A DNA stretch of 64,000 nucleotides. Origin: Thermoflexus hugenholtzii (GTDB taxonomy: Bacteria > Chloroflexota > Anaerolineae > Thermoflexales > Thermoflexaceae). Made by a program: the position numbers and the translations under genes. This document shows, one piece after another, positions 15,667-42,735 of this stretch. The stretch's first letter is position 1. Each line of letters opens with the position of its first letter. The stretch is from assembly GCF_018771565.1 (NCBI RefSeq), contig NZ_CP076326.1, positions 1,488,001 to 1,552,000 on the forward strand, in the 5' to 3' direction. The notes beneath the pieces were generated by a model. The model had not been told where the DNA came from, made no database searches, and was given only the letters and a program-made list of their open reading frames with translations.

Positions 15667-15706
15667 GGAGGAGTCCGCGCGGATTCTCTCCCCTCCGGAT
15701 CCCCGC

Positions 15707-15712
15707 TAAAAT
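15707..15712 (+). promoter_or_regulatory. -10-like box cut off from infA by the TnpB element
   Basis: TAAAAT lies at 15707-15712, 9 bp before the left end of the TnpB element. The same box stands before obg and the aminotransferase. Without the element it would lie about 60 bp before infA, so it may be the ancestral infA promoter. This is inference. Confidence 0.35.
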
Positions 15713-15795
15713 TATGGATGTAGGAGTTACGCAGTTGGATGCGTCCTTCTCTTCACGCGGCGGACGGGGCTATCATCATGATGGAGGCAGCGACG

Positions 15796-16977
15796 ATGCC
15801 GACGGTCTGCCTGCGGTTCCGATTCGAGGAGCATCCCAAAATCCGCGCCCTGATGGAGGCCTGCGCCGACATCCAGCGACAGGCCGTCGACTACGCCCTG
15901 GAAAACGGCAAAACCGCCACCTTCACCCTCATCCAGGCCCTCTACCCCTCCCTGCGCGCGCAGCATCCGGATCTCCACTCCAACCTCATCTACGGGGCGA
16001 TCCGATCCGGCGCCCGGATCGTCCACGGCTTCCGAAACCAGCAGCGGAAGGGGAAAACCCGGGCGGACCGGCCGGAGATCCGGCGCCCCTCGATCTATCT
16101 GGTCCGGCAGACGGTGAAGATCGAATGGGATGGCGAGACCCTGACCGTCACGATTCCGGTCTCCCCCCGGGATCCGGAGCCCATCGTCCTCACCTTCCGC
16201 CCTCATCACCAGTATCGCCGGCTGCTGGACGAGTGGAAGGCGGGGCGGGCGCGGATGGGGGAGCCGACGCTCACGGCCCATTCCCTCTCCATCCCCTTGA
16301 AGTTCCCCGACCCCATCCCCTATAAGCCGGAGGGGGTGATCGGGATCGACAGCAATGAAGGTAACCTCACGGCCTTCGTGACCTCCACCGGCGAGATCCG
16401 GGAGATCGACACCCGGTATGTGGGGAAGGTCAACCGGGACCATCTGCGGCGCGAGATCAAAGGGACGAGAGGGAAGCACAACCCAAAGGCCAAAAAGAAG
16501 ATCGCCTCCAAGCATCGAAGGATTCGCCGGGAGAAGACGGAGAACTTCTGGCATCATCTGGCCCTGGCCTTGATCGCCTGGGCGCTGGGGATGCGGGCGG
16601 CCCTGGTGCTGGAGGATCTGAAGGGGATGAAGGAGCGGATCGGGAAGGGAAAGTCCAGGAGGATGCGGCAGCGTCTGCTCAATTTCTGGAGCATTATGAC
16701 TTTCCATCGCATTCTGGTTCACAAGGCAAGATTCTACGGCGTTCCGGTGATTTGGGTGGATCCGCAGAACACGTCCCGGTCGTGTCCGGTATGCGGCAAG
16801 GTGGGTGAAAGGCTAAGGGGACACGCCTTGGCGTGCCCTTGCGGGGCGAGGATGGGCCGTCACGAGGCGGCGGCGGTGAACATCGCCCGCAGGGGGGTGG
16901 AATTCCTCGAGGGCTTGGGCCTTCGAGGCAGGGGTCGGTGGGCGACCCCGGTGGCCGGTCCTCTGGCCTCGGGTTAA
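15796..16977 (+). CDS. tnpB: TnpB-like RNA-guided nuclease relative (OrfB, zinc ribbon)
   Basis: This 393-residue TnpB-family protein has an N-terminal wedge-like region and a RuvC-I motif GVIGIDSNEGN at about 181. A basic stretch KHNPKAKKKIASKHRRIRR follows, then the RuvC-II motif ALVLEDLKGMKE at about 270. The zinc ribbon is SCPVCGKVG...LACPCGARMG at about 334-356. Where active TnpB has the RuvC-III aspartate (DxNAAxNI), this protein reads HEAAAVNI, so that catalytic Asp seems replaced by His. The start MPTVCLRF was chosen because GGAGG lies 8 nt upstream; an in-frame ATG at 15739 is nearer the element end. Confidence 0.85.
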   Translation: MPTVCLRFRFEEHPKIRALMEACADIQRQAVDYALENGKTATFTLIQALYPSLRAQHPDLHSNLIYGAIRSGARIVHGFRNQQRKGKTRADRPEIRRPSIYLVRQTVKIEWDGETLTVTIPVSPRDPEPIVLTFRPHHQYRRLLDEWKAGRARMGEPTLTAHSLSIPLKFPDPIPYKPEGVIGIDSNEGNLTAFVTSTGEIREIDTRYVGKVNRDHLRREIKGTRGKHNPKAKKKIASKHRRIRREKTENFWHHLALALIAWALGMRAALVLEDLKGMKERIGKGKSRRMRQRLLNFWSIMTFHRILVHKARFYGVPVIWVDPQNTSRSCPVCGKVGERLRGHALACPCGARMGRHEAAAVNIARRGVEFLEGLGLRGRGRWATPVAGPLASG

Positions 16978-16997
16978 AAACCCAAGGCCACGACCGG
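16955..16997 (+). ncRNA. omega-RNA-like hairpin across the tnpB stop codon, copy 1
   Basis: GGCCTCGGGTT (16965-16975) pairs with AACCCAAGGCC (16979-16989) with one C/A mismatch. An outer stem CCGGTC / GACCGG (16955-16960 and 16992-16997) surrounds it. The TAA stop lies at the loop. Copy 2 has the same fold. TnpB guide RNAs overlap the 3' end of tnpB and the right element end, so this is a candidate scaffold; expression is not shown. Confidence 0.5.
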
Positions 16998-17075
16998 AAT
17001 ACGCAGGCAACTGCGTAAGTCCTAGGATGGATCATCGCGTCCGAAGGGACCATCCTCGAAGCCCCGGGAGGCTCG

Positions 17076-17312
17076 ATGGCGAAAGGCGGCGAGAAGGCCA
17101 AGGATGTCATCCAGGTGGAAGGGACGGTGGTGGAGACCCTTCCGAACACGATGTTCAAGGTCCGCCTGGACAACGGCCACGAGGTGCTGGCCCACCTCTC
17201 CGGCCGGATGCGGATGTATTACATCCGCGTGCTCCTGGGGGACCGGGTGCTGGTGGAGCTCTCCCCCTACGACCTGAGCCGGGGGCGCATCGTCCGGCGG
17301 CTCTCCCGCTGA
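17076..17312 (+). CDS. infA: translation initiation factor IF-1
   Basis: This 78-residue OB-fold protein matches IF-1, which binds the 30S A site with IF-2 and IF-3. Recognisable parts are [40 protein letters not shown] and [20 protein letters not shown]. It stands alone, not in the usual ribosomal protein cluster, which suggests a second copy or a moved gene. A TnpB element ends 51 bp upstream and may have cut it from its promoter. The N-terminal MAKGGEKAK extension of about 4 residues is minor. Confidence 0.95.
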
Positions 17313-17370
17313 GGGCGGCGCCGCGCCCTCCGCGCCCTCCAGCCCTGCGCCCCGTGGCGGCGCTCCGGGT

Positions 17371-41059: not shown

Positions 41060-41367
41060 GAAGTAAGAGTAGAGGAGAAGCTCAGGACCACCGGGAAGGC
41101 CCGAAGGTTTCTTGATTGGGGTCTCAATCCGAGGCGCGGCATATCGCTTTAGTGATGAGCCTTTTCCAGCTCCTGAAGCTCATGCTGAAGTGGGAACACC
41201 CGATATCGCTCCAGGCTCAACAAAAATTCCACCCGGGACAGCCCGGCCAGCTCTGCGGCTCGCCCGGAGGATAGGCGTCCCATTTCATAGAGCCAGGAGT
41301 TACGCAGTTGGATTCGTCCTTCTCCCCACGCGGCGGATGGGTTATCATCATGATGGAGGTGGCGACG

Positions 41368-42549
41368 ATGCCGACGGTCTGCCTGCGGTTCCGATTCGAA
41401 GAGCATCCCAAAATCCGCGCCCTGATGGAGGCCTGCGCCGACATCCAGCGGCAGGCCATTGATTATGCTTTGGAAAACGGCAAAACCGCCACCTTCACCC
41501 TCATCCAGGCCCTCTACCCCTCCCTGCGCGCGCAGCATCCGGATCTCCACTCCAACCTCATCTACGGGGCGATCCGATCCGGCGCCCGGGTCGTCCACGT
41601 CTTTCGGAATCAACAGCGGAGAGGGAAGACCCGGGCGGACCGGCCGGAGATCCGGCGCCCCTCGGTCTACCTGGTTCGGCAGACGGTGAAGATCGAATGG
41701 GATGGCGAGATCCTGACCGTCACGATTCCGGTCTCCCCCCGGGATCCGGAGCCCATCGTCCTCACTTTCCGTCCCCACCACAAGTATCGCCGGCTGCTGG
41801 ACGAGTGGAAGGCGGGGCGGGCGAGGATGGGGGAGCCGACGCTCACGGCCCACTCCCTCTCCATCCCCCTCAAGTTCCCCGATCCCATCCCCTATAGGCC
41901 GGAGGGGGTGATCGGGATCGATAGCAACGAGGGGAATCTGACGGCCTTCGTGACCTCCACCGGCGAGATCCGGGAGATCGACACCCGGTATGTGGGGAAG
42001 GTCAACCGGGACCATCTGCGGCGCGAGATCAAAGGGACGAGAGGAAAGCACAACCCGAAGGCCAAGAAGAAGATCGCCTCCAAACACCGAAGGATTCGCC
42101 GGGAGAAGACGGAGAACTTCTGGCATCATCTGGCCCTGGCCTTGATTGCCTGGGCGCTCGGGATGAAAGCGGCTCTGGTGCTGGAGGATCTCAAGGGGAT
42201 GAAGGAGCGGATCGGGGAGGGGAAGTCCAGGAGGATGCGGCAGCGCCTGCTCAATTTCTGGAGCATTATGACTTTCCATCGGATTCTGGTTCACAAGGCG
42301 AGGTTTTACGGGGTTCCGGTGATTGGGGTGGATCCGCAGAACACGTCCCGGGCGTGTCCGGTATGCGGCAGGGTGGGTGAAAGGCTAAGGGGACACGTCC
42401 TGGCGTGCCCTTGCGGGGTGAGGATGGGCCGTCACGCGGCGGCGGCGGTGAACATCGCCCGCAGGGGGGTGGAATTCCTCGAGGGCTTGGGCCTTCGAGG
42501 CAGGGGTCGGTGGGCGACCCCGGTGGCCGGTCCTCTGGCCTTGGGCTAA
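41368..42549 (+). CDS. tnpB: TnpB-like protein, copy 2
   Basis: This 393-residue protein is nearly identical to the product at 15796-16977; most nucleotide differences are silent. RuvC-I GVIGIDSNEGN, RuvC-II LVLEDLKGMKE and the zinc ribbon (ACPVCGRVG, LACPCGVRMG) are intact. The RuvC-III position again reads His (GRHAAAAVNIARR), so the change is not a copy-specific error. Start MPTVCLRF with GGAGG as in copy 1. Confidence 0.85.
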   Translation: MPTVCLRFRFEEHPKIRALMEACADIQRQAIDYALENGKTATFTLIQALYPSLRAQHPDLHSNLIYGAIRSGARVVHVFRNQQRRGKTRADRPEIRRPSVYLVRQTVKIEWDGEILTVTIPVSPRDPEPIVLTFRPHHKYRRLLDEWKAGRARMGEPTLTAHSLSIPLKFPDPIPYRPEGVIGIDSNEGNLTAFVTSTGEIREIDTRYVGKVNRDHLRREIKGTRGKHNPKAKKKIASKHRRIRREKTENFWHHLALALIAWALGMKAALVLEDLKGMKERIGEGKSRRMRQRLLNFWSIMTFHRILVHKARFYGVPVIGVDPQNTSRACPVCGRVGERLRGHVLACPCGVRMGRHAAAAVNIARRGVEFLEGLGLRGRGRWATPVAGPLALG

Positions 42550-42567
42550 AACCCAAGGCCACGACCG
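42530..42567 (+). ncRNA. omega-RNA-like hairpin across the tnpB stop codon, copy 2
   Basis: GGCCTTGGG (42537-42545) and CCCAAGGCC (42552-42560) form a perfect 9-bp stem with the TAA stop in the loop. The outer CCGGTC / GACCGG stem is also conserved. Copy 1 differs by one base that creates a C/A mismatch. Confidence 0.5.
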
Positions 42568-42735
42568 GAATACGCAGGAAACAGCGTAAGTCCTATTTCT
42601 CTGCCAGGAGCACCTTATCCGGGATTTCCAGGAAGATCCTCCGCGTGGCCATCCGGCCCTCCCTGACGACCCTGCAAGTCGCCCCGCGCCTCTTTCACAT
42701 CATACCATACCGCGCAGCGCTGCTCCCATGTCACC

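Follow-up and report, generated by a model that had tools for sequence, protein, structure and literature searches.

The last aspartate of the RuvC site is usually held to be necessary for cleavage by TnpB and Cas12, and its loss is taken to indicate a dead enzyme. TnpB of the ISDra2 type (IS200/IS605 and IS607; PDB 8H1J, 8EXA) works with an omegaRNA from the 3' end of its element, a guide equal to the right flank and a TAM at the left flank. Cleavage by TnpB is reported to aid IS elements in retention and as a gene drive (PMC11870625). Departures from the canonical site have also been described. In TldR proteins TnpB is inactivated while binding of the guide RNA is kept (PMC13418256). Cas12m2 (type V-M) is reported to have a His-Asp-Asp site, whose His at the first position binds metal A, and not to cut dsDNA (PMC10442227). 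RuvC of Thermus carries an Asp-Glu-His triad and is active, less so through the His, the H143D variant being more active (PMC3834835); within the RNase H-like superfamily D, E or H are reported at the third position (PMC3985635). The TnpB clades RII-r3, RII-r5 and RIII-r4 with a rearranged RuvC are a precedent for a non-canonical RuvC-III, and one RII-r5 ortholog is reported to be active (PMC10278001).

Here we analysed a stretch of 64,000 nt from Thermoflexus hugenholtzii (the window), which contains two copies of a tnpB gene coding for His in place of this last Asp. The protein shares the fold, the zinc ribbon, the RuvC-I Asp and the RuvC-II Glu with ISDra2-type TnpB, and the same arrangement of omegaRNA, guide and TAM is predicted. 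In contrast to IS200/IS605 and IS607 TnpB, its third residue is His and its element has terminal inverted repeats (TIRs) and target-site duplications (TSDs) of 5-7 bp but no Y1 or serine recombinase. It resembles TldR in having lost a catalytic RuvC residue but neither the RNA nor the fold; it differs by being multicopy and mobile, with variable guides and a retained TAM-like flank. Cas12m2 likewise has a His within the RuvC triad, but there the first Asp is replaced by His and the Glu by Asp, whereas here the last Asp alone is exchanged (PMC10442227). RuvC of the Deinococcus-Thermus group has the same triad and is active, though below its Asp variant (PMC3834835); it is, however, a Holliday-junction resolvase that is not RNA-guided, and the C-terminal helix of such resolvases is described as running in the opposite direction (PMC3985635). 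Fanzor2 is a TnpB relative that also resides in a cut-and-paste TIR/TSD transposon (PMC10711439). It is eukaryotic, its active-site change is reported at the RuvC-II Glu and the TSD is described as built into its RNA scaffold, whereas the guide here seems to start with the TSD. The His-bearing clade may or may not fall within RIII-r4. In the literature searched, of which coverage was partial, no TnpB with His at RuvC-III was found.

tnpB copies and the RuvC-III histidine

The features of both copies are summarized in Table 1. Residues of copy 1 are numbered from the ATG at 15796. The source genome (G000, one contig of 3.3 Mb) holds 12 full-length tnpB copies, two of them inside the window. The ORF is intact in all 12 and the RuvC-III residue is His in all 12. 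The 11 other copies are 92-95% identical to the 412-aa ORF of copy 1. In copy 2 the His codon is CAC at 42433-42435 within GRHAAAAVNI; across the genome the motif reads HEAAAVNI (n=9), HAAAAVNI (n=2) or HVAAAVNI (n=1).

Table 1. Coordinates of the features of both tnpB elements in the window.
Feature	Position	Strand	Remark
TAM-like TAT, copy 1	15713..15715	+	directly 5' of the TSD
Left TSD, copy 1	15716..15720	+	GGATG
Left TIR, copy 1	15721..15737	+	TAGGAGTTACGCAGTTG
tnpB copy 1	15778..16977	+	candidate starts 15778, 15781, 15796
RuvC-I Asp185	16348..16350	+	GAC, within GIDSNEGN
RuvC-II Glu273	16612..16614	+	GAG, within LEDLKG
RuvC-III His356	16861..16863	+	CAC, catalytic Asp position, within CGARMGRHEAAAVNIARRG
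omegaRNA scaffold, copy 1	16900..17024	+	four hairpin units (five counted helices); 5' boundary approximate
Right TIR, copy 1	17008..17024	-	TAGGACTTACGCAGTTG on the - strand
Right TSD, copy 1	17025..17029	+	GGATG; the predicted guide starts with these 5 nt
TAM-like CAT, copy 2	41286..41288	+	5 nt before the left end
Left TIR, copy 2	41294..41310	+	CAGGAGTTACGCAGTTG
tnpB copy 2	41368..42549	+	96% identical to copy 1, counted from the internal ATG
Right TIR, copy 2	42579..42595	-	

By profile and by structural model the copy 1 protein has a TnpB/Cas12f fold with a zinc-ribbon TNB domain. It matches PF07282 with 49.5 bits (cut-off 26.3), while the score for NF040570 (guided_TnpB) is 99.5 bits and hence slightly below the cut-off of 100. 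Cysteines 330/333/347/349 of the zinc ribbon are all intact. The protein lacks the Asp-Glu-Asp triad of TnpB: Asp185 and Glu273 are kept, and the third residue is His356 throughout. The claims of the preliminary description that Asp is replaced by His at RuvC-III in both copies, and that the remaining RuvC motifs and the zinc ribbon are intact, are therefore true and extend to the whole genome as far as the His is concerned.

Extent and origin of the histidine

All sequences in which the motif is covered, the most distant at around 50% identity, carry His (21/21). These are the 12 copies of the source genome, two partial copies in G269, one partial and one broken copy in G402, the locus L111, a sister subfamily at roughly 49% identity (L112-L114, which are the loci of G406 and G400) and the locus L115. 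Relatives are present in six of the nine genomes of the order, which comprises one genus (Thermoflexus, Chloroflexota). L115 is 53% identical and represents a third His-bearing subfamily, located on a contig of 56 kb listed among viral ones (IMGVR_UViG_3300021591_000001); no left inverted repeat was recognised for its element. A scan of viral contigs with the single window protein as query gave no match, and tblastn against plasmids and phages with the sister protein gave distant matches only. More distant loci on viral contigs, several of them near-identical, have Asp in 50 of the 51 read by eye; the exception, L171, stops short of the motif. One of the four other TnpBs in the source genome (L001, the only one read in the coding strand) also has Asp at RuvC-III.

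In an alignment of 41 rows the RuvC-III column is H in 7/7 rows of the clade and D in 34/34 other rows. The spacing from CG to NI is free of gaps and aligns His356 with this Asp. Its neighbour, residue 357, varies between E, A, V and I, such that no conserved acid stands beside His356. The His rows form one clade with a support of 100/100, implying a single change on the tree. The stem of this clade is long (2.1). Judged from alignment and tree, the His change is a single old event and has been retained since.

Column 187 in RuvC-I is N in 7/7 rows of the His clade and G in 34/34 others, so that window positions 16348-16359 (residues 185-188) read DSNE. This clade-wide exchange of Gly187 for Asn perhaps changed together with the His. 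Asp205 is invariant in the His clade and variable in the others, a further possible co-change.

Averaged over the 12 copies, dN amounts to 0.035 and dS to 0.228 (simple Nei-Gojobori counts), resulting in a dN/dS of 0.155. In 17 coding sequences the His codon is CAC (n=14) or CAT (n=3) and never codes for another residue; Asp185 and Glu273 are invariant in all 17. Based on dS, dN/dS and the invariant His, Asp and Glu, the copies are neither fresh duplicates nor wrecks. The earlier suggestion that a change conserved in both copies argues against random decay is thus borne out: the His is old and kept, with one origin, synonymous codons, low dN/dS and 12/12 unbroken reading frames. Random decay was rejected on these grounds. 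A sequencing error was rejected as the His is seen in several genomes and MAGs, and an Asp or Glu shifted by one residue was rejected as position 357 varies (E/A/V/I).

Predicted active site

The structure of the protein was predicted with a pLDDT of 88.4 and a pTM of 0.75. The top structural matches of the model are Cas12f (Z 22.5-23.7), and ISDra2 TnpB (8h1j) matches with Z 18.7. The model has a strand at 352-354 and a helix at 355-371. His356 therefore lies at the start of the predicted C-terminal helix, like Asp361 of ISDra2 TnpB, which is described at the start of its C-terminal helix (PMC10097598). On this model His356 would stand in for the Asp that helps to bind metal A. Glu188 or Asp205, both invariant in the clade, may provide another acid near the site.

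One alternative is a nuclease-dead TnpB that can no longer cut because of the His and binds DNA guided by RNA as TldR or Cas12m do, e.g. for repression or blocking at the insertion site. The third catalytic Asp is absent across the whole clade, and the coupled loss of Gly187 in RuvC-I, although it might reflect compensation as well as inactivation, would fit such a protein. TldR is a precedent for an inactivated TnpB with guide RNA binding kept (PMC13418256), Cas12m2 one for a non-canonical triad that is reported not to cleave (PMC10442227). However, Asp185 and Glu273 would be dispensable for a dead site and are nevertheless kept. Moreover, D-E-H alone is no proof of a dead enzyme because Thermus RuvC has this triad and is active (PMC3834835). 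In the parts of the deep mutational scan of ISDra2 TnpB available to us (PMC11844463) no value for Asp to His was found.

Ends of the element and relation to IS701

The copy 1 element spans 15721 to 17024 (1.3 kb) with tnpB as its sole gene. It has inverted ends of 17 bp (TAGGAGTTACGCAGTTG / CAACTGCGTAAGTCCTA), and the target duplications of such elements are 5-7 bp long. In the relative G269 the empty site is uninterrupted and TATGGATG is present once. IS605 and IS607 are not known to have terminal inverted repeats of this kind. Membership in IS200/IS605 or IS607 was rejected given the 17-bp TIRs, the 5-7-bp TSDs and the presence of tnpB alone, with no Y1 or serine recombinase (see PMC10711439 for the IS605 and IS607 transposases).

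The same kind of ends (TAGGAGTTACGCAGTTG-type) flanks a transposase gene of the IS701 family in G406 (L227; NF049921 377.5 bits, cut-off 250). No exact TSD was found at L227. Broken transposase copies with ends of this kind are present in the source genome (L044, L049), as are MITEs of 114 bp (G000:C1 197741-197854, 210914-211027, 973766-973879 and 1477171-1477284). By pattern match, two other Thermoflexus genomes contain 344 (G401) and 280 (G405) copies of the ends. We suggest that the tnpB element is non-autonomous and would be moved in trans by a DDE transposase of the IS701 family.

Apart from these, there are elements of about 225-330 bp which consist of ends and omegaRNA only (L042, L050, L047, L039:605-829 and L094). 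Such tnpB-less elements would depend on TnpB in trans.

omegaRNA and guide

The omegaRNA shares sequence with the 3' end of tnpB and stops at the right end of the element. Its fold comprises four hairpin units in the last 125 nt and was evaluated by covariation on 21 sequences. With 38 pairs, 95.5% of cells are paired, compared to 30-50% with the partners slid, a control that favours the structure since the fold was derived from one of the 21 sequences (L032). Seven pairs are changed on both sides versus 3.2 in shuffles (2/500 shuffles reach 7), and 21 cells are changed on both sides versus 6.6 (no shuffle reaches 21). Further pair types show no excess (27 versus 26.3 in shuffles). The structure is retained in the tnpB-less elements. 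No Rfam match was found at window positions 15700-17060 up to an E of 0.1.

As the scaffold terminates at the right end CCTA, the predicted guide would begin with the TSD. The predicted guides of the 12 copies are all different and each equals its own flank. Features of a domesticated TldR, i.e. a linked non-transposon gene and a guide against a host gene, were not seen; the 12 copies are mobile with differing guides and unlike flanks.

A TAM-like motif at the insertion sites

We inspected the flanks of 19 elements with two readable ends (the 12 tnpB copies of the source genome, L111, three of the sister subfamily and three without tnpB), 13 of which have an exact TSD. L039 was treated as one unit made up of an element without tnpB and one with it, sharing one TSD. 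Excluded were L115, for which no left end was found, L042, whose left end is worn, and L057, L059, L062 and L069, each with a single end. In all 13 elements with TSD the dinucleotide directly 5' of the TSD is AT. The trinucleotide is YAT (CAT/TAT) in 11/13 and GAT in 2/13, both of the sister subfamily. At the other flank of these 13 elements AT is found in 3/13 and YAT in 1/13. Where the TSD is longer, with 6 bp in L034 and 7 bp in L094, the motif still directly precedes its first base. Assuming the 5-nt spacing, the six elements without TSD have CAT (L033, L036), GAT (L111) or AAT (L050), while L114 and L047 lack AT there. As background, AT occupies 4.0% of all dinucleotide positions in the window, and YAT 1.5% of the trinucleotide positions.

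MITEs served as control. Of 45 MITE pairs sharing the ends of the tnpB element, most of them from another Thermoflexus species (G401), 25 have a TSD; here AT and YAT precede it in 5/25 and 3/25 and occur on the right in 2/25 and 1/25, respectively. The difference between tnpB/omegaRNA elements and MITEs is pronounced (Fisher p 1.6e-6 for AT, 1.9e-5 for YAT), although a difference of transposases might still contribute to it, the control MITEs being mostly from G401. The motif stands where a TAM must be, provided that the guide starts with the TSD and the target is the empty site. Going by these flanking sequences, the motif is seemingly the signature of a TAM used by a working RNA-guided system.

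In IS200/IS605 the target of the transposase coincides with the TAM. By analogy, YAT could be a target preference of the transposase only, with TnpB riding along with a damaged site, and some A+T preference is indeed seen before the TSD of MITEs. We regard this as very improbable. YAT precedes the TSD in just 3/25 MITEs with the same ends, the sister subfamily with the same ends has GAT in its 2/2 TSD-bearing copies, and a dN/dS of 0.155 is not that of a mere passenger.

Another reading cuts across those with an active nuclease and those with binding only. TnpB-omegaRNA might license the target choice of the trans-acting IS701 transposase, such that insertions occur, and not merely survive, beside a YAT TAM. 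The insertion sites share nothing obvious beyond the motif; target choice would hence be by the TAM and not by the guide. We give this little credence. If true, a DDE transposase would be directed to TAMs by a weakened or cut-less TnpB that has turned into its targeting factor.

Putative mode of action

That selection on the protein, the RNA and a TAM-like flank have all been kept in an element that is mobile points to an RNA-guided function exerted on the empty site. We favour, with a probability of roughly 0.6, that TnpB with the D-E-H site is an active, probably slower, RNA-guided nuclease as in the case of Thermus RuvC. The omegaRNA from the 3' end of the element would carry the target duplication and the flank to the right as guide. 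The complex would then locate the same sequence beside a 5'-YAT TAM on chromosome copies without insertion, where TnpB, with His356 at the N-terminal end of the C-terminal helix replacing the metal A Asp, would cut, probably slowly. Repair from the occupied copy would spread or retain the element.

The unusual active site, one of the options raised in the preliminary description, is thus preferred in view of the mobile multicopy elements, the own-flank guides, the kept YAT and the D-E-H precedent. The TldR-like repressor raised beside it is not favoured. The elements are still mobile with 12 copies, each guide being distinct and equal to its own flank, and no host gene is linked. In addition, a TAM-like motif is retained before the TSD for which a pure DNA-binding protein has no obvious need. 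Hence we consider a nuclease-dead TnpB unlikely, though worth serious consideration.

The D-E-H site might also be partially active, processing its own omegaRNA, cutting single strands or nicking, with no double-strand breaks. TnpB RuvC is reported to process its own RNA, and some orthologs do so without activity in a dsDNA TAM screen (PMC10278001). However, processing of omegaRNA alone leaves the TAM-like flank unexplained, and we deem partial activity improbable.

With His in every member, genes under selection and TAM-like marks at the insertion sites, this clade offers a clean experiment of nature on whether a D-E-H site can function in an RNA-guided nuclease. It also warns against declaring relatives of TnpB dead on the grounds of a single residue. 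The system places a bacterial TnpB and its omegaRNA in TIR/TSD elements of the IS701 kind and brings built-in controls in the form of MITEs and of omegaRNA elements without tnpB.

Arrangement of individual copies

In L039 (G000:C1 1476886-1478534) a tnpB-less and a tnpB element lie in tandem within one TSD (TCTCT), preceded by CAT. A MITE is nested in it, inserted just ahead of the start of tnpB. Directly downstream of copy 1 (window 17077-17313) is a short gene which, by eye, we take to resemble translation initiation factor IF-1. L033 (window 41294-42595) and L036 (G000:C1 about 2.294 Mb) both have no TSD of their own. One pair of their flanks agrees, CAT TTTCT to the left of L036 and TTTCT to the right of L033, while the other pair is mismatched. 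The two copies are inverted relative to each other and may have recombined, which would amount to a large inversion.
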